This document shows positions 12,090-47,364 of a stretch of DNA of 51,211 bases, piece by piece. The DNA comes from Chromera velia (lineage: Eukaryota; Sar; Chromeraceae): the NCBI GenBank assembly GCA_018398765.1, contig JAHBMJ010000301.1:1-51211 (forward strand), given 5' to 3'. Below the pieces are notes generated by a model, which did not search any database, was not told the DNA's origin, and saw only the letters and a list, made by a program, of their open reading frames with translations. Position numbers and translations under genes: made by a program. Within the stretch, counting starts at the first letter, position 1, and each line of letters opens with the position of its first letter.

Positions 12090-12980
12090 AAAGCAAACGA
12101 TGTGTTGAGCAAGTGCGATGAAAAAGAGAGCATTTGAACCCTTTCCCCTGTCTGTCTCTCATCCTTCCGCTGTGCCCGGTTTATTTGCGTTCACTCTTCT
12201 TCCATCCGTTCACTCATTTCTCGTTTCTCGCCGCTCTTTTTTCTCCTTCCACTTTACCACATCGTCGCGCACAAGCAGAGGGAATAATCGAGGGAATAAT
12301 TCATCCCTCCTTGCACCTCTCCACCCCACCATCCGGCCTGCCCCCCTTTTCTCGTTTCTTTGCATTTGCTCGGCATGACAGAGTGACTCTGCTTCAACCA
12401 CGAGTCAGAAACGATGTTGGGGCTTTGCATCCTACCTTCACCTTCATCCCCTTCTTTTTCTGTTTTTTTCACGGGAGGGAAAAACAAAGTCTGTTTTTTC
12501 TCCGTCGTCCTCTCCCTTCTTTGCTTTTTCTCCTTTTCCCGTCTGGGCGTACAGGGTCGGGGCTGAGCGTCTGCAAACAAAAGCCTGTCCTTCCTTTCTC
12601 ATTCTGTCAGCCTGCCAGTGGCTGTCTGCCTGTCTGCTGCTACGTTTCTGAATCTGCCCCCTGATTTAAGTTTCTCCCTTGGCGCTACTCTTTTTTTCGG
12701 CGTCTTCCTTTCCTTCCGCCCCATTGTTCTTCCTGCTCTTTCCTTCCCTTCATCACCCACCCGCACACCCACTCGCTCAAGCAAGGGAGCGCCTTCATAC
12801 TGCTCTCTAAATCATCATGAATGCGTCCTTGCCTGTCTGTGTGTGTCTACCTGCATGTGTGTGCAAGGCTGAAAGGAGGGAAAACCTCAAGTGTGCATCT
12901 GTTGTTCGTTCCCGACGGGTGAACACTGCACTGAATGAAAAAGACCAAATTGGAGTCCAAACATAGTTTCTTTGCATACT
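12090..12980 (+). repeat. Dispersed repeat, copy 1 (about 0.9 kb, diverged)
   Basis: This pyrimidine-rich stretch downstream of the ATP synthase-like gene aligns in the same orientation with 32105-33070. Shared words include CTTTCCACTTTACCAC-type and GGAGCGCCTTCATACTGCT (12788 onward and 32881 onward), TGTCTACCTGCATGT, TTGTTCGTTCCC and GCACTGAATGAAAAA-type. Divergence is substantial with many small indels. No coding capacity is evident, so it may be a non-autonomous element or an old segmental duplication. Confidence 0.7.
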
Positions 12981-14250
12981 TTGAGAGGGGAAGGTGTTGA
13001 TAAATCAATCAGAGAGACAACAGTCGCCTGTCTCTTTGAAGACTCTCCTAAAAAATATAAATAAAGATTATGAAATGTGACCCGAGGTATGACCGCGTCT
13101 AGAAATGCCTTCTACATCATGCCGGTGACTTTGTGGGCAACACTGGATGCAACATATACATTAAGAATAATGCATGCATTAAACAAAAACACCCTACAAG
13201 TAAATTTGAAAGTAGATTTGAGTAATTTAGATGAGTAGTAATTTAAAGTAATTTACTAAGTTAGCTAAGCAATTTAAAGTAGTTTATAGAGTATAATTTA
13301 GAATAGTACTACACAGTACGGTTAGGAGTTAGTACCGAGTTACTACCGGCCCCTTTTAGCCAGTAGTGAGTTACCGTTAGTTTGATAACCATGAGATGGT
13401 AACCAGCGGACTTGAAGGCGTGTACCACTACCATGGTAGTTTAAGAAAAAACTCTGGTAAAAACAGTTGCTAGACCCATTTTAAAGCCTGACTACTTAAC
13501 TTATTAGCAATTCAAGTTTAAAGCCCTGAAATGATTATACTCAAATAATATAGGCTATACACAATAATATAGTAATTATACTTCAGTCATAAAATGATAA
13601 ACATTGAAAAACATTGAGTTTTATTATAGAATGAACTTTTAATGAATGCCAAAAATATGATTTTTACTGGTATAAAATTGGTTTTGTAGGTTAAGTTTGA
13701 CTCAAAATATGGCCAAATCTGCCTGTTTTTAGCTACTACCGCTATCATTGGAACACTACTACCATAATTACAAAATTAGTAACCGGGCAGCTTAGCGGCC
13801 GCCTAGTGACCATCCTACTTTCGTTACTCCTAACCGTACTATGTAAATAGTACTAGGAATAGTAAACTAAAGCAATTTAGAAGACTCCGATAGGAATCTA
13901 AATTAGAAAAAAAAATTAAATTACTAGATGAATAATGAATTGATTGATTAATTAATTAATTGGTTCTGCACTAGGCTTTCCCGCTATGTTTAGGTGTCGA
14001 ATTGAATTAAATTGAGGCGGTTAAAGCCGGTGAGCCACTACTTAGGCTCTAACCAACCACGGGGCATATGACATGCAATGTTAGTGTGTTGATCTTTTTC
14101 CGTTTTTGACCTAGTGCAGTGACTCAATCACATGTGGCAATTAACATGAAATCACGCCAATTTGGCTATACATTCCTCATTTAGAAAGTACTGGTCACAT
14201 TAGAATTTAGAAATTTAGAAGTATATCAATGTTCACTTTTAAATTGATGT
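12981..14250. other. AT-rich island without genes
   Basis: Base composition changes abruptly from pyrimidine-rich to strongly AT-rich (runs such as AATTTAAAGTAATTTACTAAG). No ORF worth calling is present. It contains the foldback element at 13290-13862. At 14020-14035 it carries a 16-base word, GTTAAAGCCGGTGAGC, repeated exactly at 33229-33244 in the other AT-rich island. Confidence 0.6.
13290..13862. mobile_element. Foldback/MITE-like element with inverted ends
   Basis: The word AGTACGGTTAGGAGTTA at 13315-13331 recurs inverted at 13824-13840 with one mismatch. The inverted similarity continues outward imperfectly (AATAGTACTA against TAGTACTAGGAATAG). The interior of about 490 bp has no ORF but repeats the words TACTACCG and TTACCGTTA. 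This fits a non-autonomous inverted-repeat element. I could not fix the exact termini or a target-site duplication. Confidence 0.5.
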
Positions 14251-19824: not shown

Positions 19825-20763
19825 ATGAGCATGGTTGCAGTCTGGTTGAATTGTAAAGGAGTACAAAGGGGACTGCAGCCTTGGTTGTCCTCAAAAGAGT
19901 TTAAGAAGGAGTTTGAGGAAGCAGACATTATTTTTCTGAACGAGACATGCTCTTCTTTAAGAGAGTGCCAGACAGTAACAGGAAAGAAGACTGGAGTCAA
20001 CTACCCACTGATAATGAAATTGGGGGAGCAGACAGTAAACACGGGCGGGGTTACTATGCTTCTTAGCTATAGGAGAAGGAGTGCAGGTTGGGAAGAAGAC
20101 AGACTGAGCGGGGCCACGGGGATGGTACAGAATCTAAATCCACAAAAAACCCTGCTGTGTGGAGTATATGATCCCGCCGCACGTACTACGTACTGTGACG
20201 AAACTTTGATTACAGATCTGAAGGAGTGCATGGAAGAGAAAAGAAGAAAAGGGGGCGGGGAAAGGGGTAGGGTATATGTTGGAGGAGACTTCAATGCAAG
20301 GATTGGAAAAGAGGCTCCAAAGATTCTCTTTGGGGAAGATGTCGGGGTTGGGGAAGTGGAAGGGAGGGGACAGAAAAGAGAGAGTTGTGAGCCTGTTAGG
20401 CAGTCCTAAGATCTGATAGTGAACGAAAAGGGGAGGAGACTGATTTTGTTCTGCGAAGAAACAGAGATCGTACCGCTTAACGGCCTGCGTCAGTGCAAAG
20501 TCGAGAGGGGAGAGGAAGAGAAGTCATTTAACTTCGATGGGTCGTTCACTTTTTCTGGTCTTAGGAGGGATGCATTTACAGTAAATGATTATATTTGTGT
20601 TTCGCCTGAACTTCTTCTGTTTGTTCATGCTTTTTCTGTGAAGGAAGTGAATTCGGTAAAGACTGACCACGCCACACTTTGGTTGCACCTGCGCTTGCGA
20701 GAAACAAAAGATAAGAAGAGGAGAAAGAGGACAAAGAAAGAGAGGGAGCTGCCAGAGCAAGAC
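19825..20763 (+). pseudogene. Retrotransposon endonuclease (APE/EEP) domain, stop at 20407
   Basis: The start AVWLNCKGV matches the LNxxG opening of APE-type endonucleases. The catalytic signatures are present: FLNET (Glu), GGDFNARIG (Asp/Asn) and, after the stop, KTDHATLWL (the Asp-His pair near the C-terminus). The TAA at 20407 interrupts the frame, which continues directly in the same phase to the TAA at 20764. By homology the enzyme nicks target DNA to prime reverse transcription; this copy cannot make it in one piece unless the stops are read through. Confidence 0.8.
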
Positions 20764-20766
20764 TAA

Positions 20767-22671
20767 ATTCAAAAAAGATGGTGGAGACCCTTACCAGAGA
20801 GAGCAGAAAAGAACTTCTTGTCAGCGCTGGAAAGAAGATTAGACAACGAAGGAGTAAAAAGAGAAATGAGCAAGATGATAGACGTTCAGAAAGGAGTTCG
20901 GGTAATGGAAGAGACACTAGATAGACCATACAGGAAGCTGAAAAAAGCAGTAGAAGAGGAATACAAGAAAGCGTGCAAGAAAGAAAAGAAATGCAGAAGA
21001 GGGACAAACGTTAAAGAGGATGACACACCAGAGATAATAATCAAGAGGAGAATCAAACAAGTGAAAAAGATCGAATCACAGGCAGGAAAAAAAGTAAGAG
21101 ACGCCAAAAAGAAGCTCGACGAAGAAAAGATAGAATCAGCAGAAAGAGAATTGAAAGAAGCAAAAGAGGCTTTGCACTCAGCAAGCAGGGAGAGAAGAAG
21201 AACGATGAGAAAAGAGGAGGCAAGGCAGAGATTGAAAAGAATAGAAAGAATCACAAGTCAGCTGGCAGAGAAAGGAAGAGAATGGAAGGTATGGAACCAG
21301 CTGAGCAAAAAGAAAGAGGTAAGAAAGGAAGATGCGCTGACTGAAGAAGAGATAACAAGGGGGTGGGAAAAACAGTGGAAGAAAGATGAAAACGAAGACG
21401 CAGAGGAAGAAATTATGGAAACCGTCTCACGCATCTTCAAAGTGCTGACAGAAATAAAAGAATGGAGGATAGACACAAAAAAGGTGCGTGAAGGATTGAA
21501 AAAGAACGGAAACCCTAAGAAAGCGGCAGGAAAAGATGGCATACCTCCGGGTGTGCATGGTGTAATGGCAAAGTCGGCAACAGTGGTCGAGTATTACCAT
21601 GCATTAATAAATGTGTGTGCTCGTTTCGCATGGTGGCCGTCTGGATGGAATGATCTCGTGATCTCCACACTTCCTAAACCAGAGAAGCCGCAGAACATTC
21701 AAAAAGGATGGAGACCAATCCACTTAGACTCAGCCGATACGAAATGGGGGGAGTTGTACGTGAGGGATGCGGTAGAGACAGAGGGAAGGGAGAAACGGAA
21801 CCATGTGCAGTTCGCCTACAGTAAAGGGGTGGGAACCTTGAATGCAATTTTTCTTTTGCTTCAATCGATCGCTTGTCTCAAGATTTTTTTTGTTTCTTTT
21901 ATTGATTTCATAAGTGTATTTGATGAAGCATCTCATAGTAGAATGCCTGAACAGTTGAAAAAGCACGGGGTGCGGGAAGAGACCATTAAGTGGGTATGTG
22001 AGTCGCTGCGAAATATCAGAGCAAGGGTGAAGGGGAGTGATTTCTGGTTTCGGAAAGAAAAGGGGTCAAAGCAGGGAGGTCCGGCAGGACCTTCTGTGTT
22101 TAAGGGATATACAAATGACATGCCAGCAGACATTAGGAGGAGGGCAGGCCTCACCGGGAGGGGTCCCAAGCTCCAGAAAGGCCCCGATCGTGCGCAAGAG
22201 AACTTCCCTGTCGGGCTTTTTACTGACAACACATACCTTCAGTCGATAGAGGCAGAGGAGATGGAAAGGCTTTTGAAGGCACTGGAGGAGTATGCGAGGC
22301 CTTTGAAGCTCCTTCTGTCAGATAAGTCAAGAAGAATGAAGTTTGGACAGAAAGCGGGAGAGAGAAGAAAGCGATTCACGTTGGGTGGGGCAGAGTTAGT
22401 TCAGGCAAGCGAATACCCGTACCTTGGCCTTCTTTTAACAGAAGATTACTCCACAGATGCAATGATGAGAGAGAGAATGATTAAGGCAGAAAGACTCTTT
22501 TTTGCATTGAAAAGTAAGATCAGTGCAGGAGGAGAGATCCCACCTGCAACTTGTTTTCAATGGTTCAGGCAGACAGTATGTGCAGTTTGGTCATACGGCT
22601 GCGAAGTACATTCACACTCGCAGGAAGCGTTTGCAGAGTTTGACAGACTGCAAAGAAGATTCATTCGATGA
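20767..22671 (+). pseudogene. Retrotransposon reverse transcriptase domain, altered active site
   Basis: The first third is a Lys/Glu-rich helical linker. Reverse transcriptase motifs follow: AAGKDGIPPGVHG (usual KAPGPDG), DFISVFDEASH (usual DFxxAFDxVxH), SKQGGPAGPSVFKGYTND (usual GxxQGxxLSPLLFxxYxxD), FTDNTYL in place of the usual YADDxxL, and YPYLGLLL (usual YLGxxL). The Asp-Asp pair is reduced to Asp-Asn, so catalysis is unlikely. The frame has no ATG directly after the preceding stop; the first is near 20866. It ends at TGA 22669 and continues in phase beyond. Confidence 0.85.
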
Positions 22672-23772
22672 GTGCTGCAACTGAGAGAGAAAGAAAGCAT
22701 ACTCACCATTTTCTTTGAGGCAGGCCTTCTTCCTATCGATCTGGTGGTTGCACAGAGAACCTTGATGTGGACAAGGAAGGTAATCCAAAAAGGAAGAGAC
22801 ACACTGACAGGCCATGCACTCATTCAATCATTGCAGGAAGGAGTCGATTCAGAACTGAGAAGAAGGAAGCTTCACCCCTTTCACCTTTTCCCCCACTTAA
22901 AGAAATGTGTCGAAACACTTTTCACAGAGACAAGAAGCCATCCCTTCCAGATAGGAAGAGAACCAGAAGCTGCAGGCAGACAACCTTCCTTTGAAAGAAG
23001 AGATAGAATAGTAAAGTGGATAGAAGTGCTGAAAAAGGAACAAATTACAAAGAGGAAAAAGGAAGCATTTGCAGAGAGAGTTGAGAGGTCAGTGCAGAAA
23101 AGAGGAAGGGCCGAAAGGGAAGAGCTGAGAGAAGGCATCATACATCCTATCCATGCATCTCTATCCAACGGAAATCGCCTAAATCTGTGGCTTCACAACA
23201 GCAAGAATAGAGAAGATACAGACAGAAGCATTTCATTAGATAGAGATAAGATAGGGAGAACTCCCGTCTGCTGCACAAAGATAGCTCCCTGGCCTGTCCA
23301 CAGAAGAAGGGCTGCATTTCGGGTGAGAGAGAGAAACTTAAAGGTAAACAGGGGGAAGTTCTCAGCAGAAAGAGACAGGGGGACCCCATTGACAGAAAAG
23401 AAATGCATGGTTTGCTCTGACCTGCTTGACATTCAAATAGTCGAAGATGAAATCCATGTGCTGACTGAATGCCCTCTGCATGATGGAGAGAGGGCAGACT
23501 GCTTGCAAGCTTTGATGACACATTGGAGTTCGGTGAAAGGGAGAGAGGAGAGAGCTGCAAATAGCAGCAGATGGAAAGTGGGTGGTGAAGGGAAGGTAGA
23601 CAAGATTACTCTATTCTCTTTTCTTTTGAATGAGGCCGACAAGAATGTCGATACCTTTCTGAAAGACATCATGATGAAAAAACAGGTAGTGAGAGAATGG
23701 AAAAGAAAAAAGGGAGACAATTTGAGTCAAACTTTAGGAAGAGAGTTAGATAGGCTGCATCAAGAGACTTAG
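22672..23772 (+). pseudogene. Retrotransposon C-terminal region with Cys/His motif
   Basis: This continues the same frame after TGA 22669 (the stop replaces a residue in FIR*VLQL). It is about 366 residues long. Near its end it holds CMVC followed by HVLTECPLH, the C-x2-C ... H-x4-C arrangement found at the C-terminus of many LINE polyproteins, thought to bind nucleic acid. It ends at TAG 23770. Confidence 0.7.
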
Positions 23773-24150: not shown

Positions 24151-25611
24151 TAGCAATAATGATGACTAACCAATACTTATTTCACTTGGAATAAAAACAA
24201 AAGGCTATTCTACTAGTATAGGCTATTCTAATATTTTTGGCTAGTACATGAATTATTCTAGTAGAATAGTTAATGACTATTCTAAGAGGTGTAAAGAAAA
24301 ACCTGACCCATAGATGTGACATATTATGCCAAGTATTATTCTTATGCAAAGAAGATTGAAAATCATATTTTAAGTAAGTTGAAATACATGTCTACTGACC
24401 ACCGTTATAATGAAATATAATAAAACATGCATGCCCGTACATGACACTACTAGTATATGCATACCCGGTTAGATACTCGGAAATAACACGTCTGTGCCTG
24501 GCTTTTAAAAGAGAAAAAGAGAGAGGGAGCGGACTTGAATTACAAAGATGACTTGTAGAAGCGCTCTAACTTTGCACTTTTTCCCCTTTTTTGATCTCTC
24601 TTTTTTTTCTTCACCGGCCGATCGCTCAACCTATATATAGCGACCAACCGACGCCAGGCCTCACCCAAGGTAAACAAGCAAGTACAAGCAAGTTATCAAC
24701 ATTGTCGGGGTGTGCCACTTGTTTATCTCTTCCAATTTCAAACCCCAGTGTTACCCCACATTCTATATAATACCCCCTCGCCTCCGTTCTCATTCCTACA
24801 GGTCGCACTGAACCCCTGTACAATAGTTTGGATGCCCCCCGCTTTACCTCCCCAAAACTTCAAAACAAAATAAGGAAGAAGGTAGGAAGGAGAAATGGAA
24901 AGCAAAGAATCAAAAAGACTTTAATCCTGCTCTACTTCTATGTTCGTTATGCTTTCTTGACGGTTTTGACCTCCCGACACGAGAATCAACAGAACACGCA
25001 GTCTTCTGCAAGACCCCTGTCTGTCATGCAGGCTCATGACAGCATGCGGAGTCTCCTTCGCCCCTGCAAAGAGTCTACACAAACACTCTCAGGCTGTTTC
25101 CTTTCCCATTCACTTCGTTGTGCAACCGTTCTGCTTGACTGATTGAGTGTGTCGATCGTGCATGCAGGCAGAGGCGTGAAGGAAAGTGCAAACGAGACTG
25201 TACGGCATTGTGGAAACAGGCAAAAGCAAACCTCCTGAAGGGACAATTAACCAGCACCAACAAAACAAAAACTGAAAGAGCCTACAGACCCCATTACAGG
25301 TAGTCGGATTGGAGGCGGCACCGAAAAAAAAGGAGACAGACAATCCCACCATTCACCCACACATTTACCCATCCCTCTATCCGTCCCTCCATCTACCCAA
25401 CCACCCAATCACCCACCCACCCATCCATCTATTTGTCAAAAACTCCGAGGGAAAGACGGACTTTGTAAGCTTCTGCATCGTCACTGGATCGCAGTCACTT
25501 TCACCTGCACGACTACAACTTCCTGATGCTTCCATCCTACTCTCACAGACGTCCTGTCAAATGTTTCAGCTTTGGCAGTCTTTGCAGTCCGAGCCCCTAT
25601 TTGTGCCCCGA
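24151..25611. other. AT-rich to mixed intergenic DNA
   Basis: No gene is supported. An inverted pair CTATTCTACTAG (about 24204) and CTAGTAGAATAG (about 24257) could form a hairpin. At 24630 the sequence CTATATATAG is TATA-like, but no coding sequence follows clearly. Confidence 0.35.
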
Positions 25612-25926
25612 AACTCCACAAGTCACTCGCACACACATTGAAAGAAGAGGGACCAAAACCGACCAACTAAGCGAAGAGCACAGCACACAGCCCCCGCATG
25701 AACGACCTGATCGATCGATCGACCTTCCTTCCTCTCATGGTGCAACAAGTGAAGCCTCTTCAGAAATCCAGAACAGGGAAAGAGAAAAAGAGAAGACAAG
25801 CAAGGAAGGGAAAGGGAAAGGGAAAGTCAAGGTGCTGAATCTGTAGAGGGGATCTTCTTGCACTCATTGCAAAATCGCCGATCTTTTCTGTGAATGCATA
25901 TGCCCTTCTCTCCGCACTCTTTGCAG
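25612..25926 (-). repeat. Inverted repeat arm 1, same sequence as 31378-31692
   Basis: The reverse complement of this stretch matches 31378-31692 base for base as far as I can compare by eye. It covers the last codons of both paralogous genes plus about 215 bp of 3' flank, including GATCGATCGATC and CTTTCCCTTTCCC. Similarity stops sharply after AACTCCAC at 25612. Confidence 0.85.
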
Positions 25927-27701
25927 TAGTAGCGCCTTCGCCCGTGCTCACAAAACTGCTTCCCACCGCACTCCTTACACTTGGAGCGCTGCCTGCCATG
26001 CTCGCAGATGCTCTTCCCCCCACACTCTTTGCACTGATTGCGTCTACGGCCGTGCTCGCAGATGCTCTTCCCCCCACACTCCTTGCATTGATACCGCTGT
26101 CGGCCGTGCTCGCAGATGCTCGTCCCTCCACACTCCTTGCACTTGATCCGCTCCCGGCCGTGCTCACAGATACTCTTCCCCCCACACTCCTTGCACTGAT
26201 TGCGTCTACGGCCGTGCTCGCAGATACCCTTCCCTCCACACTCCTTGCACTGAGAGCGCTGTCGGCCGTGCTCACACACAGACCCCCCCCCGCAATCTTT
26301 GCACTTGCGACGCTCCCGGCCGTGCTCACAGATACCCTTCCCTCCACATTCTTTGCACTGAGAGCGAATGCGACCGTGCTCGCAGATGCTCTTCCCCCCA
26401 CACTCCTTGCATTGAGAGCGCTGCCGACCGTGCTCACACACAGAACCCCCCCCGCAATCCTTGCACCGAGAGAGAACCCGTGCATGCAAGCAGAGAATCT
26501 TCCCATGGCGGTTCCTTTTGACCTCTCCCCCTCGGTGACCATTCTCACAAACTACCCCTTTCTCTCCAGCGTCCGGATCCCCCCGCCTGCTACACAACTC
26601 AGAAAAGAGTGGTGCGGAGTTCGAAAGAGCAACAGTCAAACGACGCTGTTTCTCTTCCCGAAACACATCCCCATCCACCCCCCACGAAGCATCTTCCCTT
26701 CTTTCACCGGCACAGCCCCCCACTTGATCGCACTCGTCAGCCTCAACCTGAGTGAGGCCACTCTCAGACCGACGACGCTTCTGATCTCGGGGAACCAATT
26801 GCGCCCTCTGCCCATCTTCTTCTTGTCGTCGACCACGAGTGCAGTCATGGGGAAGCAAATGAGGGGAGGTCGGGGGGTGACAGGAAAGAAATCTGTTGTC
26901 AGTAACGTTGGTGTCAGCAGACGGACGGTTGCAGACACCCACTGAAGGGGAGCGGTCAGGATGCACTTCATTCTCTTTCAAACACAACTCAACAGCTGAC
27001 TGAGAGGGACAAACAGAGGACCCTGACGCACTCCGTTGCTCATCGGGGCTTTCAGAGATTCGAGCGTTTACTGGTATCCCCTCTGTGCGAGGCGGACAGG
27101 CAATCTCTGACTGAGGGTCAGTGTCTCTCTGTGGATGTTCTGTCTGTCTGTTCGTAAGCCGAGGGAGCAGTGCGAGCTGCACGCTCTCAAGGACCCCCCA
27201 TTCCACCGAAATTCCAACCAGCTCCCTTTCTTGCTGCTCTCCTCCCCCCTCTACACCGACATGGATTGTGTTGTCACCCCTCTCTCCGACCGCAGACGAG
27301 TCAGAAGGAGAAGACGCACCAACGAGACGCACCACACGGAAGTCTCCACCCCTCAGCGGCTCCAGAGACACAACATTGTCGGAATTCGGAACACCAGACC
27401 CCTCCCCATCGTTCGGAACCGCAAGCAGTCGAAACTTCAATTCTGAAACACCCACTTTCCCGACCCTTCCCTCTGTCTCTGCAACAGCTGCGAACTCTGC
27501 AGAGACACCCAAAGGGGATTCTGACAGATTCACCTCCACCTCACTTGACACCCACCACGGACGCCCACACGGTGCAGGTCTCATGCACAACGCATCACCC
27601 AACTCCCACCCACCCAGCTCAGGACATTCTCCCGCCACCACAACTCGCTGATTCTCTCGCACCTCCGGGCAATGCGCAACAAAGGCGATTCCTCTCTTCA
27701 T
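25827..27701 (-). CDS. CBM20 starch-binding domain plus 12 Cys/His repeats, 624 aa
   Basis: A single intronless frame runs from ATG 27701 (MKRGIAFVAHCP) to TGA 25827. The frame is open upstream without another ATG. Residues about 4-60 fit a CBM20 domain: VVVAGECPELGGWELGDAL and a later conserved tryptophan pair (PWW). CBM20 binds starch and glycogen-like glucans. A long Ser/Pro/Arg-rich, low-complexity middle follows. From about residue 403 there are 12 tandem 18-residue units of the pattern C-x-H-x6-C-x2-C-G-G, typically CEHGRxRxxCKECGGKxI; each unit offers four metal ligands. The last unit is divergent (CIHRKDRRFCNEC) and the protein ends KKIPSTDSAP. The paralogue at 29351-31477 points the other way. 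No signal peptide is visible, so a cytosolic or nuclear site is likely. Linking starch to a metal-binding or nucleic-acid-binding array is inference. Confidence 0.85.
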   Translation of the reverse strand: MKRGIAFVAHCPEVRENQRVVVAGECPELGGWELGDALCMRPAPCGRPWWVSSEVEVNLSESPLGVSAEFAAVAETEGRVGKVGVSELKFRLLAVPNDGEGSGVPNSDNVVSLEPLRGGDFRVVRLVGASSPSDSSAVGERGDNTIHVGVEGGGEQQERELVGISVEWGVLESVQLALLPRLTNRQTEHPQRDTDPQSEIACPPRTEGIPVNARISESPDEQRSASGSSVCPSQSAVELCLKENEVHPDRSPSVGVCNRPSADTNVTDNRFLSCHPPTSPHLLPHDCTRGRRQEEDGQRAQLVPRDQKRRRSESGLTQVEADECDQVGGCAGERREDASWGVDGDVFREEKQRRLTVALSNSAPLFSELCSRRGDPDAGEKGVVCENGHRGGEVKRNRHGKILCLHARVLSRCKDCGGGSVCEHGRQRSQCKECGGKSICEHGRIRSQCKECGGKGICEHGRERRKCKDCGGGSVCEHGRQRSQCKECGGKGICEHGRRRNQCKECGGKSICEHGRERIKCKECGGTSICEHGRQRYQCKECGGKSICEHGRRRNQCKECGGKSICEHGRQRSKCKECGGKQFCEHGRRRYYCKECGEKGICIHRKDRRFCNECKKIPSTDSAP

Positions 27702-29350
27702 TTTGACAATCAACTCCAGTCGATGGACCGATCGTTGTTGATTCGCAAGGAATACAGACGAGCTCGCAGCTGCCTCTGAGCGTCGACACCCTTGAGAACC
27801 AGCTGCGCGCAATCGCAAAGAAAACAACAAGCCCGATCTTTTCTGAACACTATATACAGCTCGAAAAGTCAAACGGAGCCATCACACAATAGGATCGATG
27901 GAATGACTCAATGCCTGTTTCAGGCAAGAAAGGCAACAAACTACCTAGACAAACTACTTACCGCGCGTTTCGGCCAGCAACAGCCTGGTTGGGTTGGTTG
28001 ATACAGTGTGATCAGCAACGAAAAGACAGTCAAGTGAGCCCTGAGACGCGTCCAGAAGAGTTGAAAGTGTCACCCAACTGTGACCCAAGAAAGAGGGACT
28101 GAAGAAGTCGGTAGTGAACAAAGAAGGAACGGACAGACTCTTCAGTTGCCCGCTCCTGCAACCCACGAGATTAGAAGATCTCCTGGCCCGTCTCACGATG
28201 AAACCCGTGGACCAGCTTCACTCATCTGACGAGCAACCGCAGAGGAAGCTATAGCCAGAAAGGGCAACTGCTGTCCATCACATCAAGAAGCCCCAAATGA
28301 GTCACGGGCGACCGAAAAAGACACATCGATCAAACTGTATATCTAAGGAGCACTCACACAACAGATCCACTCAACATGACTGAACAATGAGCACTGAGCA
28401 GACCAGAACAGGAGACTTGGGATTCAAGGGGAATGGAGGGAAATGGAGGGCAAATCGATGCATGGCAAAACGACCGATACGCGCAGTGACGCATTCAGCC
28501 CTTGCGATGCCACTGCAGCATGCATGCATCGATCGCGCTGGCTGTTCGTCGCACATCATCCCACTTCAACTCATGCACTGAGAATGATCCTACTCTTCGA
28601 CGTCTTCGTACTCTTCCATATATATATATATATTTCGCTACTCAAGAGTTTTCACTGTACGTCAGTTTGACACGTTCACACAAGAGGTCAGCAATTGAGA
28701 CGTGTGCAAGTCCCCATGCATCTGACTCGGAGTTTTCAGTGTATCGGTGTCTGAATTTTGCACTCTAGTTGAAGCTCCTTTTTGTCCAGCTTCGGCCTTG
28801 ATCTGAAGGCTGGTCCCTTCAGGCTGGCTCTCGTCTTTGCTCTGCTTAAGCGAGAGAGAAATTTTGTGCCTCCGGCTTCCCACCGTCTGTTTCAGTAGTT
28901 GCAGCTGTACGTCGTGTCACCGAAGCTCTTCTTCGAGGAAGGGCAGCTGCAGTCTCAGGGTCTGTCTTTTGATCGAGAGATCGAATCTCTCCTCTCGGCG
29001 GGATTCCTCTTGTGAGACCCGGGGAGTTTGTCGATCGCTGTTTGGGGCCTTCGGCGGTCGTTTTCTCGCTGTACTGACGGGTCTTCTGTGTCTTCGATCG
29101 GCATCAGATCAACAACTCGCCGGCCGGGTCTCGGGTCGTCTTCTTGATATATAACTCCAACAGCCGGCGGTCAGTGACGGTCTCTTACAGGGCGGCTCAA
29201 TTCTTCCGAAAGTCTCAGTAGGACCCTTTGCTTTTGAAATGTATATCAATACATACGCGTTGATTGCCTGCAGGGATCTCTTGTTGGTTTCACTCTCTCG
29301 TTGCCGCTTCTGCTCCTTCGATTGATCGATCGATCGATTGATTGTTCGTG
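27702..29350. promoter_or_regulatory. Divergent intergenic region between the CBM20 twins
   Basis: About 1.65 kb separates the two start codons. TATA-like words occur on both sides: CTGTATATAGTG (minus sense) near 27855, ATATATATATATAT near 28619-28632, and TTGATATATAAC at 29142-29153. GCATGCATGCATCGATCG lies near 28518, and the tract before the second ATG contains GATCGATCGATCGATTGATTG. The region may carry 5' UTRs and even 5' introns; none could be proven. Confidence 0.4.
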
Positions 29351-31477
29351 ATGGAGGCGGAGACGGGTGGTGGTGTGCTTTTTGCGTGCTCTGGTGTGGA
29401 GCCTCGGGAGGGGCAGACACTGGTGGTGGTCGGGAGCAGCTCTGAGCTCGGAGGGTGGGATGCGAGTCGCGGTATCACCCTCCATCGAGTGAAGAACCCT
29501 GCCTTCCCAGGAGTGTGGATGTCGTTTCCGATGCATCACAGCGCGTGCTCTCAAGTGCAGTTTCAGTTTGCCCTTGTTGGACCGCATACCGATACTGTCG
29601 CATTGCATTCGTCAGTGTGGAGTGGTGCGACGTTGGTAGACGGCGGGTCTCTGATAGACGGTGGGTGTGAGAACTCTTCCGCAGTCACTTCAGCCACCTC
29701 AGCAGCAGCCCTCACCAACGGTGGAGGTCGTGATTGTTGTGGGTGCGTGTGTGAGCCTTTGGGGTGTGGGCTGCGGAAAGTGGAGGTTGTCGATGGTGGG
29801 TTTGTGTTGTTTGGTGGACGTTGGGGAAATGGGGAGACACAGGTGACTCCGTTGGCATTGAAGGACATGGTGTTAGCAAAACAGCAACTTGAACAGGACA
29901 CGCTCCCCTCTGTCACCTCTAAGTCTCACATTGAGAGGGAGAGGGAGGGCGGCGAACCGAGGGGAGGGGGGAGCTTTGGGGGTCCGCCAGAGGGTGATAT
30001 GATGCTTAGTGACGTCGCTGCAGAGAGCGGGAGTGCCTCGGTTTCTGTTGCCGCACCGCCTACAGCCCCCTCACCTGCCTCAGAGAGAGCTTGTGGTCAA
30101 TGGAAGGGAAAGGGGTGTGGGATGGCTCAGCATGTACAGTCTGAAGCTGAGTTTCCCGCCCGCAGAGGCAGAGCATCTGTAGAGGAGGGTACGGAGAATG
30201 CAGATACTCTGATGGCGTCTGCTGACTGCTCTGGTGAATGTGGTGTGTCTGTTTCCGTGGGTCATCCTGAGACCTCTGTGCCTATGTGTGTTCAGAGGCG
30301 GGGGGAAGGGGGGAAAGGGATGAGAAGAGGGTATGAATGGTGTAATGAGGCACTTCGATTCGCACCTGCAGCTCTGAGGCATGGGTGGGGGGTTGGGGGC
30401 GAAGAGGGGGGGGTTCTGTTGGGAGGGAAGACTGCAGAGAGCGTGAATGGTTTGGTGGGTGTACGTAACTCTATCTCTCCTAGAGATCTCGTCGGAGTGA
30501 GCGTGTCTTCAGTGTGTGAGGGGTCGAAGCGCCGCCGTCTCTCTTCTCTTTCCGCTACCGTCTCTGTCTCCGAATCCAACAGAGAAAGGGGGGAGGGGAT
30601 CCAAGAGGGGTTGAGTAGAGACAGAGACTTTTCTGCGCGGTCCTTTGAATCAGTCCCGCAGCACTACACTCTCTCCTCCGTCAATGACAGCGTCACTCCA
30701 CACTGCGAGCAGTATGACGCGACTGGTCGAGAGGTGAAGAGAGAAGCGCAAGGGGGAGTCTGTGCGAGGGAAGCAGCGGGAGGAGGGGGAGAGCAGGAAA
30801 CGGACGTGCATCTCCAGAGAGGGGACCTCTGTCTCCTCGGCTGTGCTCGCACTCACTGCAAGGACCGCGCGTGTAGCGACGGTAGCAGTGGAAGCATGGG
30901 AGTGGGGAGGAGAGGGGGGAATACGAGAGAGTACACAGGAGAAGTCAAGAGGGACAGGCACGGACGGATCCTCTGTTTGCATGGACGGGTTCGCACCACG
31001 TGCAAGGAGTGCGGGGGTGGGTCTGTGTGCAAGCACGGCCGACAGCGCTCTCAGTGCAAAGAGTGCGGGGGGAAGGGGTATTGCGAGCACGGCCGCCTGC
31101 GCTACTACTGCAAGGAGTGCGGAGGGAAGGGTATCTGTGAACACGGGCGAAAACGCTCTCAGTGCAAAGAGTGTGGGGGGAAGGCGTTTTGCAAGCACGG
31201 CCGAGAGCGGAACAAATGCAGGGATTGCGGAGGGAAGAGCATCTGCGAGCACGGCCGCGAGCGGAACAAGTGCAAGGAGTGTGGGGGGAAGAGCATCTGC
31301 GAGCACGGCAGGCAGCGCTCTCAATGCAAGGAGTGCGGGGGGAAGAGCATTTGCGAGCACGGCCGCCTGCGCTACTTCTGCAAAGAGTGCGGAGAGAAGG
31401 GCATATGCATTCACAGAAAAGATCGGCGATTTTGCAATGAGTGCAAGAAGATCCCCTCTACAGATTCAGCACCTTGA
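29351..31477 (+). CDS. CBM20 starch-binding domain plus 9 Cys/His repeats, 708 aa
   Basis: An intronless frame runs from ATG 29351 (MEAETGGGVLFACSG) to TGA 31475. Residues about 8-75 form a CBM20 domain: GQTLVVVGSSSELGGWDASRG, a tryptophan in GVWMSF, then a VQFQFALV strand. The middle is long, Gly/Ser/Glu-rich and unlike the twin, though both carry EVKRxRHGxILCLH just before the array. From about residue 541 there are nine C-x-H-x6-C-x2-C units of 18 residues. The C-terminal 33 residues or so are the same as in the twin. Family knowledge supports glucan binding for CBM20. I know such Cys/His repeats only from uncharacterised algal-type proteins (memory, unverified). A role in starch sensing, glucan phosphorylation control or scaffold assembly is speculation. 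Confidence 0.85.
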   Translation: MEAETGGGVLFACSGVEPREGQTLVVVGSSSELGGWDASRGITLHRVKNPAFPGVWMSFPMHHSACSQVQFQFALVGPHTDTVALHSSVWSGATLVDGGSLIDGGCENSSAVTSATSAAALTNGGGRDCCGCVCEPLGCGLRKVEVVDGGFVLFGGRWGNGETQVTPLALKDMVLAKQQLEQDTLPSVTSKSHIEREREGGEPRGGGSFGGPPEGDMMLSDVAAESGSASVSVAAPPTAPSPASERACGQWKGKGCGMAQHVQSEAEFPARRGRASVEEGTENADTLMASADCSGECGVSVSVGHPETSVPMCVQRRGEGGKGMRRGYEWCNEALRFAPAALRHGWGVGGEEGGVLLGGKTAESVNGLVGVRNSISPRDLVGVSVSSVCEGSKRRRLSSLSATVSVSESNRERGEGIQEGLSRDRDFSARSFESVPQHYTLSSVNDSVTPHCEQYDATGREVKREAQGGVCAREAAGGGGEQETDVHLQRGDLCLLGCARTHCKDRACSDGSSGSMGVGRRGGNTREYTGEVKRDRHGRILCLHGRVRTTCKECGGGSVCKHGRQRSQCKECGGKGYCEHGRLRYYCKECGGKGICEHGRKRSQCKECGGKAFCKHGRERNKCRDCGGKSICEHGRERNKCKECGGKSICEHGRQRSQCKECGGKSICEHGRLRYFCKECGEKGICIHRKDRRFCNECKKIPSTDSAP

Positions 31478-31692
31478 CTTTCCCTTTCCCTTTCCCTTCC
31501 TTGCTTGTCTTCTCTTTTTCTCTTTCCCTGTTCTGGATTTCTGAAGAGGCTTCACTTGTTGCACCATGAGAGGAAGGAAGGTCGATCGATCGATCAGGTC
31601 GTTCATGCGGGGGCTGTGTGCTGTGCTCTTCGCTTAGTTGGTCGGTTTTGGTCCCTCTTCTTTCAATGTGTGTGCGAGTGACTTGTGGAGTT
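31378..31692 (+). repeat. Inverted repeat arm 2, same sequence as 25612-25926
   Basis: This is the partner of the arm at 25612-25926. It includes the last repeat-array codons, the stop codon and about 215 bp beyond it. The flanks differ at once after GTGGAGTT (31692). Confidence 0.85.
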
Positions 31693-32078
31693 GGGGGCAG
31701 TTAAATAGACAGACTCTCAGTGAGAGAGCGCTGCTTATCCTCTTCCCTCCCCATCACCCCCCCCTCTTTTCCTGCACAGTAAATGTAAATCTATTGACAG
31801 ATTCTCCCTCCGGCCATTGATGCTTTCTCGCCCTTCTCTTTCAACTGCTGTTCACCCGTCTCTTTGATGTTTTGGTTGTCTGGTCATGTCTGTTCGTTGC
31901 CTGTTCTTGTGCCCGTGAGGGTGCACACTTGGTGTCTCTCTCGGTGTGCTTTTGTGTTGTATGTTTGTATGCATGCGTTTGTGTGAGTGTGCGTCTGCAT
32001 GTGGACTTTTTTATTTATGTGTATGTGCATGCGTGTATATTTGCATCAGTGGACCTCTGGGCAAAGGGGAGGGGGGGG
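31693..32078. other. Intergenic, GT-rich
   Basis: No gene is seen. The sequence is rich in GTGT, TGCATGCG and pyrimidine runs, and leads into a poly-G tract before the gap. Confidence 0.3.
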
Positions 32079-32104: not shown

Positions 32105-33070
32105 GGCAAATGCAAACGATGCGTTGCATGAGCAATTAGGAAGAGGAAGAGAGTGTTGGACTCCTTTTTTCTTCCCCTCTATCCAAGTTGCTAACTTCGC
32201 TTTCCTTTTTCTTTCTCAAATTCCTTCTTTGGAGGTCTTCAAGTTTATCCATCCATCTGTTCGCTCATTTCACGTTTCTCGTCGCTTTTCCCCCCCTTTC
32301 CACTTTACCACTTCCACGCGTAAAAGCAGAAGGAGAGGAAAAGGAGGGAAACAACTTATCGTCCTTCTGGTTCGAAGAAAAAGTTCATCCCTCCATGCAT
32401 CTCTTCACCCCACCATCGATCTTGCCTCCCTCTTTTCGTTTCATTGAAAAGCAGAAGAGGCATAACATTCAAGCAGAAGAGGAATGGGCAAGAGACAGAG
32501 GCGATGCTCAGGTCCTGCATCCTACCTTCACCTCCATGCATTCCATTCTTTTCGGTGTCTTTCATAAGAGAGGAAGACATGCGAAACACGGACCGCTTGA
32601 CTGTGTGTGTCGCCTCCGTCTTGCCCCCCCCCCCTTCCTGTCTGCGGGCGTACAGGAGAGGCAAAGCGTATGCGGGCAGCCGGTGCGTTTTTTCTCATTC
32701 TGTCAGCATGGCTGTCTGTCTGTCTGTCAGTTGTTACGTTTCTGAATCTGTCCGTTCTTTGGCGCCACTCTTTTTTTCGGTGTCTTCCTTTCCACCCGCC
32801 CCCTTGTTCTTCTTGTTCTTTCTTTCCTTTCCTTTCCTTTATCACCCATCTACGCATAACCACAGACCCGGTCAAGGAACGGAGCGCCTTCATACTGCTT
32901 TCTAACTCATCATAAATGCGTCTATGCGTCTCTGTACGTACGTGTCTACCTGCATGTAAGCTTGCGGCTGAAATATAAGAGAAAACTTCAGCTGTGCATC
33001 GATTTGCATGTTGTTCGTTCCCAACGGGTATATATTGCAATGAATGAAAAACAACAAATTGAATATGGTT
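32105..33070 (+). repeat. Dispersed repeat, copy 2 (about 0.95 kb)
   Basis: This aligns with 12090-12980 in the same orientation. It begins at GCAAACGATG and ends near TGAATGAAAAACAACAAATTG. Similarity is clearest at 32260-32420 and 32870-33065. As in copy 1, an AT-rich island follows, and the word GTTAAAGCCGGTGAGC lies beyond (33229). Confidence 0.7.
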
Positions 33071-33274
33071 TGATTCAGGTTGCATTCTTTTGGCCACACA
33101 ATTAAGGAAGTACAAAAAAATACTATAGTTCTCCTACGCTAGCAATGCAAATTGTGTGTGGCCCGGCAGTGTAAGTCCGATCATAATGCCATAATAATGG
33201 TATATAAATGAATGAATTTAATTAGCCAGTTAAAGCCGGTGAGCATACCCCTTAGCGGCTTCTGCCTTGCATGC

Positions 33275-41489: not shown

Positions 41490-44400
41490 GTACGGGGGGG
41501 GCTCCGCCTCTTCCACAGCGACGATTTTCTCTTCGTAGTCGTACGCCGGGGGTGCCTCCTCATCCTCCGGCCCTGCGCGGGGCGGCATTCCTCCCCTCGG
41601 ACCTCCTCCTCGCATGTGCATGGGGGGACCGTACGGGCCATCAGACTCTGCATAGGGCGGCCGGGGTCCTCGCCCGTGCATGCGTCTCTCTCTCTCTCTG
41701 TCGTATTCGAAGTCGCGTCGGGGGTCGTCCCACGGGTGAGGGGGGTACCCGCCTCCTCTCCGACCGTACCTTTCTCTCTCGTACTCCCGCGGAGAGGGGT
41801 AGTCCGGGTACAGGTCGGGGGAACGGGGTCCCACCGGCCAGGGCGGGTAGTCGTCGTAGCCGTCTCCCCCCATACCTCTTCTGCCATCTGGGTGATAGGG
41901 GGGGTACCGCCCAAATCTCTCACCAGGCTCCCACCCATCGGGCCCTGGGCGTCCTCTCACTCTGGCCCTCCACTCTCCCCAGGCCTCACGGTCGTCTTTC
42001 TCTCTCTCCCACCCGGGGGGGGGCAGGCCTCTGCCGTCTCTGCCTCCCCACATCATACCATCAGGGTCGCGGTCGGAGTACGGTCGGCGCATCTGCATGC
42101 AGGTCGGGGAGGGATACAGAGGTCGCTGGTTTCAAGAAGCCATGCAGGGAGCAGTATACAAGGAAAAGATGGGCAATCTAGCCGAACAAGAGAAAAAACA
42201 TTAATTCCGTACAGAGCGTCATTTTACCTTCTCACGGAAAAGCCACATACATTTCTACAACGCCAAAAGCTGGCAGGCAGAGCAAACACCCCGATAGACA
42301 CAGAACAGTCTGGACGAGGAGGCACACAGTTAGTTGACAGAAGACTCACATGCATCATATCGTCGTGTGGGGGCTCTCCAGACCCGGAGGAGCGGGAAGT
42401 TCTCTTCACGAATCGGCCGTCGAAAGCTGAACGGGAAGGGGCCGCAGTGTTGCCCCTGTCCCCAGTGCTGCACGACCCTCCCTTGAAGAACGGCACGGGG
42501 GGCGCGCCGTTCGAGTGGCCCCACGCTGCAATAAATAAAAGAGAACCCACGGGCCACGAGGGAATTAGTGTCGAGCGCAAAGCGAGAGAGACGACCTCGT
42601 ACTCGTCTCCAAAAGAGAATAAGGTCAACGAAGACGATCGAAAAAAACAGAAGCCAGATTCAAAAAACAAAGACACAACGTGTGTGTGTTCTTTCTCGGG
42701 CCCCACAAAGCAACTCACCGGAAGGGCCGCTCATATCAGAGGTTCTTCGGCTGTTTGCCGACGGTTCCACTCTCACTCCGAAAGTGTTCTTATTCTTTGA
42801 CGCCATAGCAACCACGTGTGCAGGTGCAGCTTTCGCCGCGTCATCTGATTCCTTCTCACTCGGGGGCGGCGGGGGCATCGGGGGTCTCTTCTTTCCGGGG
42901 TCCGATGCCGCCGCTCTGGCGGCGTTCAGTTCTTCGAAAGAGTGCGCGTACGTGCACTGGTTTCCTCTCGCACACGCGAAGCCCTGCATACATGCATACG
43001 CGCACATGCTCTATGTCAATCATGCATGTGAAACACGCGAGGGATGACAAAACGCATCCGCACACCTAGACTGAGATGTCGCAGGCTCTACTCATCCAGA
43101 GAAAAGGACAGCGGAATGGAGAGAACCGACGACAGAAGCACACACAAAAACAAACCACACACACCAACGAACGAACGGACGGACCTTCAGGACCGTGCAT
43201 GCATTCTTTTTCATACAGAATTCCTTTTCACGGAAGATGAGAATGAAAACAAACGGATAGACGGACCTTCAGGACCGAGTAGCAGAGAGATGTCTTTTCG
43301 AGCTCTGGACGGACTCTGCACGCACACGCACCGAGAGAGGGAAGGAGATATACCCACTGTGCACTTACATGCACTTCGACCTAGAGACGTTCATGCAAAA
43401 GCACAAACAAAATTTCTTCATTCTTTCACATGCTTGCAGAATGCAGAATGCGGAGCAGAAGGTTGCACTGATCGAGGATATGCACACGAAACGAAGCTGA
43501 TCAGTCAACCGGTCAAACGATAAAAAATGGTAAGTCTCGTGAGCTCGCTTTCTTGGTCGGACAACCAAAAATCAATCGTATCAAAGGACATTTGCTTTTT
43601 GAGGTCATACAAAATGCTTCCGCCCTCCCAACCAAATATCCATCCAGACGGACCTCAAGTCATCAGTTCCATGGGCAAATCGGCATGCCTCTCCCAGAGG
43701 GCCTGCAAGCACAGCATCGAGTCAATTAAAGCAAATAAGTGGCATACAGACAAGACTGCAAGATTCACCCACACAGATTTACTTTTGTTGTTTGTATGTT
43801 GAGGTCGAAGCTTAGACAAGCAAGGAACGTTTCAGAACCTCAGGCATGCACGTCTGTCTCCCACAAAAGGACTGTGAAAGCAAAGAGAGAAGAATGAGAC
43901 CAGACGGGGAGACCAGGATCAACGAACGAATAAAAGGATGAACACGGGCCGGCAGTACCGCGGTGTGAAACTGCAGCAAACGAAAGGAGCAAGACTTACA
44001 GCTTCCAGAGGCGAAGTGTTTACACCTGCAACCACGTACGCACGCACACAGTCACACCCACAATGTCAACTGTATGAAGTCCGAGAGCATCACCAGAGAT
44101 TGGAGAGACACACATGGATGGATGAAGGACCCCAAGAGGAGCGAACACAGACAACGAAAGCAAAGACAGGAGGAAGGCTCAATGACAGATGAAGTCCTGA
44201 AGAATACGCCGACAAGGGGGAGCAGAATCTCTCCCCTGCCGACGTCACGCTCTACACTGGAGAGCTAAACATGTGGAGAAAGTGTCATGTGACTGACAGT
44301 TGTGTCTTGAACAGAGCTGCCCTCCTGCACAGATCGATTCATTCAAAAGAAAAGAAAGGAAAGCACAGATCGATTCATTCAAAAGAAAAGAAAGGAAAGC

Positions 44401-44908
44401 ACAGATCGATTCATTCAAAAGAAAAGAAAGGAAAGCACAGATCGATTCATTCAAACGAAAAGAAAGGAAAGCACAGATCGATTCATTCAAAAGAAAAGAA
44501 AGGAAAGCACAGATCGATTCATTCAAAAGAAAAGAAAGGAAAGCATAGATCGATTCATTCAAAAGAAAAGAAAGGAAAGCACAGATCGATTCATTCAAAA
44601 GAAAAGAAAGGAAAGCACAGATCGATTCATTCAAAGGAAAAGAAAAGAAAGCACAGCAATGAAAAAGCAGACGAGTCGTGATCTTCGCAAGACGTTTCGT
44701 TCTTCTCTTCACTCCTGTACGCCAAAACCTTCTGTGTAGGTCTTCCTACAAGCAAGACAGTGCATCGATCGCAAAATGAAGGAGGAGAAGCGACTCCATG
44801 TCGACCCGCAGTCGTTTTACGGACAAAAGCAGTTGATTTACTTTGAGGAGACTGGTTGACTGACCATTCATAGCTCAAATGATCGAGTCCGGCTTCCTCC
44901 ATATTCAT
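41487..44908 (-). CDS. Tandem CCCH zinc-finger protein, 7 exons, 404 aa
   Basis: Exons 44908-44865, 44025-44000, 43702-43654, 43315-43267, 42983-42719, 42525-42350 and 42092-41487 join in frame throughout (1215 nt). Each splice falls on GT..AG and rebuilds a zinc finger, which is strong support. Finger 1 is C16-x7-C24-x5-C30-x3-H34 and finger 2 is C51-x8-C60-x5-C66-x3-H70, the second preceded by EKTSLC, a lead-in like that of TTP-type RNA-binding proteins. Each finger is spread over two or three exons. After them come a Pro/Lys-rich stretch (RPPMPPPPPSEKE), a second low-complexity segment, and an exon-7 tail of about 200 residues rich in Arg, Asp, Gly, Pro and Tyr. By family, it binds AU- or U-rich RNA and affects stability, export or processing. 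Donors of exons 1, 3 and 4 start GTC. It is head-to-head with another CCCH gene. Confidence 0.85.
44331..44654. repeat. 36-bp minisatellite, 9 units, in intron 1 of the CCCH gene
   Basis: The unit AGATCGATTCATTCAAAAGA plus AAAGAAAGGAAAGCAC repeats nine times at a strict 36-bp period (starts 44331, 44367 and so on to 44619). Units differ by single bases only. There are no spacers, so it is a tandem array and not CRISPR. The open frames across it are by-products of the period being a multiple of three. Confidence 0.95.
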
Positions 44909-46014: not shown

Positions 46015-47324
46015 ATGACGTCCCATATAAAGCAACCTCCGCCTCCTCGCCCCCCTCAGCAGCAAGAACAACAGACTGGTTCACCAGAACTGCAGCCGGA
46101 GCAGCAGCAGTCGTCTGGTGGCGGGAGCGCTGCAGCTGCAGCTGCCGGGGTGACGAAGGATCAGGTGAGACTCGGGGCGGGTGGGGGGAGACTGTTCAAA
46201 TGCACGTCTGCGACTGCTCTGCAGCCACTTTGAGAGAATGCTTCTGCTCGCGGATGGTTTGTCCGTCGCCATTTTGTGAAGCAAACTCTTATCATTCTGT
46301 CGCAACCTCTCAGTCCCTCCATCCTGCCCGCTTTCCTTTCTTTATTCCGGGTTTTCTCGCAGGTGCGACTTCAGTTACTCTTCCCGAGCCCCCCCCTTGC
46401 GCGTTCTGGTCTTCTACCATACGCGTGTGTTCAGTTTTCTTTCGCTGCCCTCCTGTCTTCTTACTTTCCTAACGGGAAGTGCTGGATCTTTCTCCTTTCT
46501 TCAGTGTGCTCACCTCCGCTTAATTTCTGCTCTGTTTTCTCCTCTCCCCTCCCCTCCTTTCTTGTCGTTTCCCTGCAGTGGTACAAAACCAAGGTTGGTC
46601 CGTCAGGGTGCCTGTGTGACGACGCTGTCGCTGCAGTGTTGCAGACTCAAAGATGTGCAGACAACACGACAGAAACACAGAGAGGCAAACGGATAAAACG
46701 TCAGACGCGCGGACAGAATATGAGTAGAGTTGAAGCAGGAGACATGCATTGGAAAGACGTGGAGCTCACAGGCAGACGGGCGGGGAGCACTTTCTCTGGA
46801 TTCGCCGGAGCGAGAATCATCGTGTCGAAAAGAAGAAAGACTCAGCTTTTGAGACGCCCCTTTGTGTGTGTGTGTGTATGTATGTATGTGTGTGTGTGCA
46901 TGGTGCTACCTGTGGTGTTTGTGCAGATGTGTCCGTTTTTTGAGAGAGGGCGGTGCTACTATCAGGACTCGTGTTGCTACGCTCACAGCGACGCTGAGCT
47001 CCGTCCGCTCCCAGACTTGAATAAGACTTCTCTCTGTAAGAAGTTTGCAAAGGTTCGTCGGCTGTATTGTTTGGATTCGATCTCTCATCATATTTGTGTG
47101 TTCGTTTCTTTTTTTGTTTATTTCTTTCTCTCTTTGTTTCTTTCGTTTTCTTCCGTTCTCTCTCGGCTTCTCCCCGCACCTCAAACGCCCTTCGTACTTT
47201 TGCGCGCACGCATCACCTGTCTGGTCCTGACAGAAACGTTCACCTATGTATGTTTCCGCCCCCACATCTATGTGCGCTTGTCACGGGGGGCGGGTGGGGG
47301 GGTTCTGCTAGGATGTCCCTTTAT

Positions 47325-47364
<40 letters not shown>

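Follow-up and report, generated by a model that had tools for sequence, protein, structure and literature searches.

Proteins built from small metal-binding units in tandem, each with few variable residues, are already known. In the C2H2 arrays of PRDM9 and the KRAB-ZNF proteins, tandem Cys/His fingers follow one another at a pitch of about 28 residues, each unit contains few hypervariable residues, and the arrays change fast. Similar repeats may occur in protist and viral proteins. The CBM20 family offers a second point of comparison through A. niger glucoamylase, in which we take W543 and W590 to form together one starch site (site 1). Here we analyze a pair of divergent genes, A and B, located in a stretch of 51,211 nucleotides of Chromera velia (contig JAHBMJ010000301.1), hereafter the window, that encode a CBM20-type domain, a linker and an array of C-x-H-x6-C-x2-C units. 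The reading that we favor with moderate confidence is that both are modular nucleic-acid-binding array proteins with a CBM20-fold partner domain. Among the papers listed by searches of open-access full text, taken without supplements, we found no description of the CxHx6CxxC unit or of strings of it, of its link to nucleases, or of its combination with CBM20.

A divergent gene pair with a common architecture

The first-pass annotation of the window described two divergent twin genes ending in 18-residue Cys/His repeat arrays. Both reading frames were indeed found to be open from an ATG (Table 1), and the array units, 9 in A and 12 in B, all lie at a spacing of 54 nt. A DNA pattern designed on a pair of units matched the window 15 times and none of 100 dinucleotide shuffles. 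The architecture consisting of a CBM20-type domain, a linker and a C-x-H-x6-C-x2-C array is confirmed for both genes. Across the three closest copies, the linker compared in the same frame yielded dN/dS values below 1 (0.37-0.97 in six comparisons, two of which gave 0.85 and 0.97), which is a weak argument for both halves being part of one coding sequence. Comparison of the window with Rfam returned no match.

Table 1. Position of genes A and B and of their features in the window.
Feature	Position	Strand	Description
Gene B	25827..27701	-	624 aa; 12 array units after a CBM20-type domain and a linker; single ORF from ATG, subfamily B
Gene A	29351..31477	+	708 aa; 9 array units after a CBM20-type domain and a linker; single ORF from ATG
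CBM20-type domain of B	27309..27701	-	First Trp W32 present; second Trp position is L113
CBM20-type domain of A	29351..29830	+	First Trp W36 present; second Trp position is C134
Polar linker of B	26493..27251	-	Residues 151-403
Polar linker of A	29801..30973	+	Residues 151-541; start overlaps domain end (not sharp)
KRRR of B, NLS-like	26769..26780	-	Residues 308-311
KRRR of A, NLS-like	30527..30538	+	Residues 393-396
Array of B	25845..26492	-	12 units of 18 aa
Array of A	30974..31459	+	9 units of 18 aa
Intergenic region between divergent A and B	27702..29350	.	Aligns throughout in C3526 copy; two pieces in C3605 copy
Inverted repeat, left arm	25607..26332	-	726 nt: array end of B and 3′ flank; 88% complementary to right arm
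Inverted repeat, right arm	30972..31697	+	726 nt: array of A and 3′ flank
Final unit of B with its 3′ flank	25612..25929	-	99.7% identical over 318 bp to A counterpart
Final unit of A with its 3′ flank	31375..31692	+	99.7% identical over 318 bp to B counterpart

The CBM20-type head and its starch-site residues

The N-terminal part of both proteins had been annotated as CBM20-like from its sequence, and profile searches bear this out for A and support it by another route for B. Gene A gave a domain-level match to Pfam PF00686 (CBM_20) at 2.3e-7 and 30.9 bits, above the curated cut-off of 23.3. Gene B remained under this cut-off (0.0016, 18.6 bits), and its assignment is supported by six B-type paralogues located on C1886, C2386, C1274, C3362, C3339 and C476, which score above it (24.3-25.4 bits), as well as by a profile built from 32 N-termini that matched, in the PDB, the glucoamylase SBD 1ac0 (3.9e-6), CGTase (4.2e-6) and laforin (1e-4). 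Searched with Foldseek, a low-confidence model of B (pLDDT 47) had glucoamylases and one CBM20 domain as its top 7 matches; none of these is significant (best E 0.12), and the support that they lend is weak. No enzyme domain joined to the CBM20-type head was found in the window proteins.

We aligned the N-terminal domains, excluding L019 (A) and L035 (B), whose starts read through, and set the register to W590 of A. niger glucoamylase by alignment through L022. All 32 domains of the alignment have the first tryptophan (LGxW, the W543 position). The W590 position is occupied by W in 12 of 15 A genes, by C in window A and the two relatives nearest to it, by L in all 12 B genes aligned and by W in four of five other relatives, L010 having a gap. 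The pair of site-1 tryptophans expected for starch binding is incomplete in window A and B, in which W590 is replaced. According to PMC3398936, W590 is where starch is first recognized. The positions of the glucoamylase site-2 residues Y527 and Y556 are non-aromatic in window A when two alignments are combined, a weak test given that the clamp occurs in only 23 of 107 CBM20 members (PMC3398936). The CBM20 of GWD3 is reported to have low affinity and presumably a single working site (PMC6243121), so that starch binding by the window heads is doubtful but conceivable. Some other members of the family may bind glucan, considering that the second tryptophan is kept in most A genes and other relatives.

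A short basic motif, KRRR, occurs in 15 of the 22 linkers read, seven of 12 among A genes and eight of 10 among B genes, and both window linkers have it. Five of the seven linkers that lack it belong to short or truncated frames and the other two are long. Four consecutive basic residues arise in 0-19% of shuffled linkers. As judged from the sequence, the CBM20 fold begins few residues after the first Met, so that no space is left for an obvious targeting peptide. KRRR, as a putative signal, fits nuclear import, and the A and B proteins are probably located in the nucleus. The earlier proposal that starch is the partner of these proteins is weakened both by this motif and by the residues found at the W590 position.

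A large dispersed family of CBM20-array genes

Our search of the 177.8 Mb (4040 contigs) of the algal genome itself revealed 87 matches to Pfam CBM_20 at E 0.01 and at least 223 matches to the array (150 of 787 candidates scored). Considering the 150 array matches listed of these 223, at least 54 of the 87 CBM20 matches are followed on the same strand by an array at a distance of 0-4 kb and 33 have none among the array matches listed, whereas the controls, an array on the wrong side or on the wrong strand, both gave 0 within the same list. CBM20 matches form 17 divergent pairs, with 1485-1761 bp between matches, one convergent pair and one tandem pair; array matches form at least 19 divergent and at least three convergent pairs (150 listed of 223). 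Some CBM20-array genes (L010, L014 and L022) lie outside the listed pairs. The gene pair of the window represents a single copy within a large, dispersed multigene family, in which a gene has up to 21 units. One array-only ORF contains at least 41 units and, over the 3 kb that were read, matches nothing in Pfam.

Seven pairs were fully read (the window and six others), and in each of them one gene belongs to subfamily A and the other to subfamily B. Ten of these 14 genes are intact single ORFs, and the frame is broken in the B genes of C3605 and C3526 and in the A genes of C2386 and C3995, where introns are possible. Over 11 loci, the distances between A genes correlate with those between B genes (Mantel r 0.44, equalled or exceeded in 36 of 5000 permutations), a correlation that fits the duplication of A and B together as a unit.

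A conserved unit with three hypervariable positions

Both window arrays open with CxH and close with CxxC, which identifies CxH-x6-CxxC as the natural unit; these boundaries and the four ligands indicate that each unit most likely binds one metal ion through C, H, C and C, presumably zinc. We analyzed 503 algal units (10 of 513 were left out as having no neighbor at 54 nt) from loci fetched by their similarity to the window array or CBM20, which are not a random sample. Invariance of the ligands is uninformative in this set because they are fixed by the search pattern. Positions 4, 5, 7, 11, 12, 14 and 15 are also conserved, although they were not part of the selection, and positions 6, 8 and 9, the variable residues of H-G-R-X-R-X-X-C, are hypervariable. 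In 381 inner units from 32 contigs, a set from which the first and last units of runs were left out, the entropies at these three positions reach 2.84, 2.77 and 3.09 bits, the next highest being 1.86 bits at position 16, and the same three positions outrank all others in each of 500 contig bootstraps. Most of the residues found there (71-82%) are Q, R, K, E, N, D, H, S or T. This variability is the pattern expected for residues contacting a variable target, a role that is putative here. The algal units combine few hypervariable residues with a fixed frame, as modular reading arrays do, a feature that is less distinct in the viral units described below.

A total of 212 distinct 6/8/9 triplets were counted. 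The B array reads VSR QSQ ISQ ERK QSQ RNQ EIK QYQ RNQ QSK RYY DRF and the A array VTT QSQ LYY KSQ ENK ENK QSQ LYF DRF. The three positions are mutually dependent beyond shuffles, for which the relatedness of units may partly account. The pN/pS ratio is 0.67-0.80 at positions 6, 8 and 9 versus 0.10-0.17 in the frame; it may reflect diversification or, being below 1, relaxed constraint, and is no proof of positive selection.

No Pfam or NCBIfam family, C2H2 included, matched the array, and its identity as a C2H2 zinc finger was rejected on this ground and on the different ligand pattern. PHROG 37414 matches the array of window B (4.6e-4). The best AlphaFold model of the array (pLDDT 79.7, pTM 0.47; 35-69 for the other four models) consists of short strands and helical turns. 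Its comparison with the PDB using Foldseek revealed no fold match, the sole match having an E of 8.2, and structure therefore gives no argument for nucleic-acid contact.

Rapid turnover and probable exchange of array ends

For A genes, the closest copies (C3605 and C3526) show a dS of 0.08-0.10 over the N-terminal 150 residues versus 0.43-0.81 over the aligned arrays. Array units are not positional orthologues, hence the latter value measures reshuffling, and, outside the opening and closing units, few triplets agree between these copies. The pace of change is higher in the arrays than in the CBM20 part. Using eight chosen pairs per subfamily, we obtained dN/dS values of 0.26-0.67 for the N-terminal part (16 comparisons) and of 0.07-0.23 for the array in 10 of 11 comparisons, the eleventh (0.59) involving a copy with a frame-changing array.

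The last unit and 3′ flank are 99.7% identical between A and B in the window, versus 78% in C3605 and 74% in C3526. Compared with these two copies, the end of window A is 85-90% identical to B-type ends and 76-81% identical to A-type ends. The near-identity of the two window ends and the B-like character of the A end suggest that array ends were exchanged between the divergent genes, probably by recent conversion or homogenization. A DNA transposon, considered on account of the 726-nt inverted repeat, was rejected because the C3605 and C3526 copies lose their homology gradually on both sides, with no sharp ends. No target-site duplication was seen by eye in the three copies compared, nor was a transposase detected in a Pfam scan of the A and B proteins. 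Old segmental duplication is a better fit to these copies.

Arrays on nucleases of viral contigs and of the algal genome

An exact-peptide search confirmed no relatives in viral contigs, genome contigs or phages. Two degenerate DNA patterns found the unit in 13 and 16 stretches of viral contigs, the two lists overlapping. The 19 viral array ORFs amount to 16 distinct ones after merging of L079/L077, L083/L082 and L089/L091. In 15 of these 16, the array is located N-terminal to an HNH/endonuclease VII-type domain, which was recognized by profile in eight ORFs (L071, L072, L075, L077, L078, L090 and two in L092), the match of L071 being weak (2.4e-4), and by motif in seven (L073, L074, two in L080, L081, L091 and L093). 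The latter share a C-terminal DHxHDG..YRGE(I/V)C..H domain whose likeness to endonuclease VII was judged by eye and which has no nuclease profile match; L091 stops half-way through the motif. The remaining ORF, L082, is an array only. Past its array, L089 falls out of the nuclease frame and continues into other sequence. L076, a candidate array carrier, was discarded as it holds no array. Pfam matches over cut-off revealed no nuclease in the 10 viral array proteins first scanned, and L090 alone among later proteins passes PF02945, the remaining profile support coming from PHROGs. PHROG 37414 and/or 15341 match many viral array proteins, several only at E >0.05. When compared with phages, L077 gave 115 matches, the best 20 of which include six annotated as HNH endonuclease or endonuclease VII, and the L080 protein gave none. 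The only prokaryote-labelled match, from a bacterial MAG, consists by eye of an array and an HNH-like end.

The same association exists in the algal genome, in which C3853 encodes an array-HNH-array-HNH succession in one frame (PHROG endonuclease VII, 4.7e-16); its HNH domain is 47% identical over 81 aa to that of viral L077. Outside this genome, the array module was found mostly on nucleases. No nuclease domain was found in A or B using Pfam, NCBIfam and PHROGs. In 62 viral units, all from L071-L082, with the later L089-L093 outside this sample, the entropies at positions 6, 8 and 9 are 3.02, 2.94 and 3.23 bits, and those at positions 16 and 17 are 2.97 and 2.85 bits; position 16 is thus more variable than position 8 and position 17 is close to it, such that 6, 8 and 9 are not set apart. 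Three algal nuclease-type arrays share 8 of 21 single triplets with CBM20-family arrays (8.0 expected), and 0 of 20 two-unit triplet words (0.075 expected), a comparison of little power. The suggestion that the array binds nucleic acids, made on first inspection of the window, gains support from the nuclease-linked arrays of viral contigs and of the algal genome and from the hypervariable unit positions.

Discussion

We infer that the array of A and B binds DNA or RNA: the modules are shared with DNA-cutting enzymes and vary mainly at few positions, and they therefore probably read nucleic-acid sequence. Four-ligand (C, H, C, C) metal-binding units would each read their target through three variable residues, and a flexible linker with an NLS-like KRRR would join the array to the N-terminal CBM20-fold domain. 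In the simplest view, the array would be the targeting part of the nucleases of HNH/endonuclease VII type found in viral contigs and in the algal genome; in the CBM20 family, for which no nuclease was found, the CBM20 fold would stand in the effector or partner-binding place. Unit turnover and exchange would remodel arrays fast, allowing paralogues to gain new targets as the CBM20 half changes slowly, and the outcome is perhaps regulation, silencing and defence being other candidates. The link between arrays and nucleases could instead mean protein-protein contact. A more ambitious interpretation, which we put forward only tentatively and hold to be less probable than its contrary, is that the CxHx6CxxC array represents a new programmable class of nucleic-acid readers with a three-residue code (6, 8, 9), used for targeting by viral and algal HNH-type nucleases and recruited into large, fast-evolving, CBM20-linked algal regulators, a protist counterpart of KRAB-ZNF proteins.

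Other interpretations deserve consideration. The proteins could be sensors or scaffolds that bind starch or another storage glucan through CBM20 and bring in proteins or metal through the array. The CBM20 fold itself, the first tryptophan found in 32 of 32 domains and the second found in 12 of 15 A genes and four of five other relatives are consistent with this view, which is nevertheless unlikely for the window genes given that the second tryptophan is replaced by C in A and by L in every one of the 12 B genes aligned, that the Y527 and Y556 positions are non-aromatic in A, that KRRR occurs in both linkers, and that arrays are linked to nucleases. Metal storage or detoxification by a chelator of the metallothionein kind would account for four ligands per 18 residues and for the high number of units, up to 21 per gene and at least 41 in the array-only ORF; however, such a function needs neither hypervariable polar positions nor a strictly kept frame, and the presence of arrays on nucleases also makes it highly improbable.

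Arrays could also have spread as minisatellites with mobile endonucleases, the CBM20 genes being decaying by-products, passengers without selected function. Frame-broken genes (4 of the 14 in the seven pairs, introns being possible) and linker dN/dS values of up to 0.97 are compatible with decay, but the other 10 genes are intact, dN/dS is 0.26-0.67 in the 16 N-terminal comparisons and 0.07-0.23 in 10 of 11 array comparisons, and A and B appear to have been co-duplicated, all of which make this explanation quite unlikely. Finally, nuclease-free arrays might occupy the sites cut by array-HNH nucleases and thereby act against homing or viruses. The coexistence of both array types within one genome and the fast change of arrays are in line with such a role, which we consider very unlikely in view of the lack of an excess of triplet words common to nuclease-type and CBM20-family arrays, as far as a low-power test can tell.

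If the array of A and B does read sequence, as in the interpretation that we prefer, it would constitute an unnamed modular recognition system made of short units with a small set of variable residues, present on viral nucleases and in a large algal family. Its code would be testable and could provide a targeting tool. It would also have evolved convergently with the PRDM9 and KRAB zinc-finger genes, here in a probable relative of apicomplexan parasites, and a CBM20 domain in a nuclear protein would put a starch-binding fold to an uncommon purpose.

With the CBM20 domains of fungal glucoamylase (1ac0), CGTase and laforin, the window proteins share the domain family, as determined by profile, and the first stacking tryptophan; they differ by the replaced second tryptophan, the fusion to an array and the fact that no enzyme domain was found. 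PHROG 37414 and 15341, which match array proteins, are uncharacterized families with no function named. Viral HNH/endonuclease VII-type proteins (PHROG 1035, 3118 and 3322; PF02945) have the array unit in common with the window genes, with positions 6, 8 and 9 variable and a similar choice of residues, whereas the window array is C-terminal, CBM20 is N-terminal and no nuclease domain was found, and viral units vary at positions 16 and 17 too. Relative to PRDM9 and KRAB-ZNF proteins, the window unit is a C-x-H-x6-C-x2-C with an 18-residue pitch and no Pfam C2H2 match, CBM20 replaces KRAB or SET, and the distribution is algal and viral. The likeness to these proteins lies in tandem small Cys/His units with few hypervariable residues between ligands, in the fast change of the array, and in a large family with a constant N-terminal domain.

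Repeats and a LINE-like element in the window

A dispersed repeat, with approximately 68-72% identity across 0.8 kb, has two copies in the window and also adjoins the C3526 copy of the duplicated segment; it may have aided the segment duplications. On the left side of the segment, at a distance of approximately 1.2 kb, lies a LINE-like element whose reverse transcriptase matches RVT_1 (5.9e-13), preceded on the 5′ side by an endonuclease/exonuclease/phosphatase match of 0.0025, under the cut-off. In the right part of the window, a tandem array comprises 9.2 copies with 97% matches, and an ORF matches a CCCH zinc finger at 1.3e-4, which is above the cut-off, with no single stretch passing alone.

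Features of the window, of other contigs of the algal genome (G000) and of a viral contig
Feature	Location	Strand	Remarks
Dispersed repeat	window 12195-12993 and 32250-33071		two copies
LINE-like retrotransposon	window 19825-23772	+	RVT_1; weak endonuclease/exonuclease/phosphatase match
Tandem array	window 44327-44656		36-bp unit
ORF	window 46276-47484	+	weak CCCH zinc-finger match
Array-only ORF	G000:C1843:12401-15400		L085
Array-HNH-array-HNH ORF	G000:C3853:39001-43400		L086 and L088; single frame
Viral array ORF	L089, 123-827	-

Array ORFs in viral contigs and elsewhere in the algal genome

The array-nuclease gene of the viral contig IMGVR_UViG_3300037485_001433 is present in two of its stretches (L077 and L079), on opposite strands. 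Compared with the near-identical viral stretch L091, the L089 ORF abandons the nuclease sequence 3′ of the array and carries instead another sequence, which we take to resemble an IS200-type transposase. In the alga, the C1843 ORF contains at least 41 array units, and a Pfam search of the 3 kb read at this locus returned no match. The C3853 ORF is close to array-HNH proteins of viruses.
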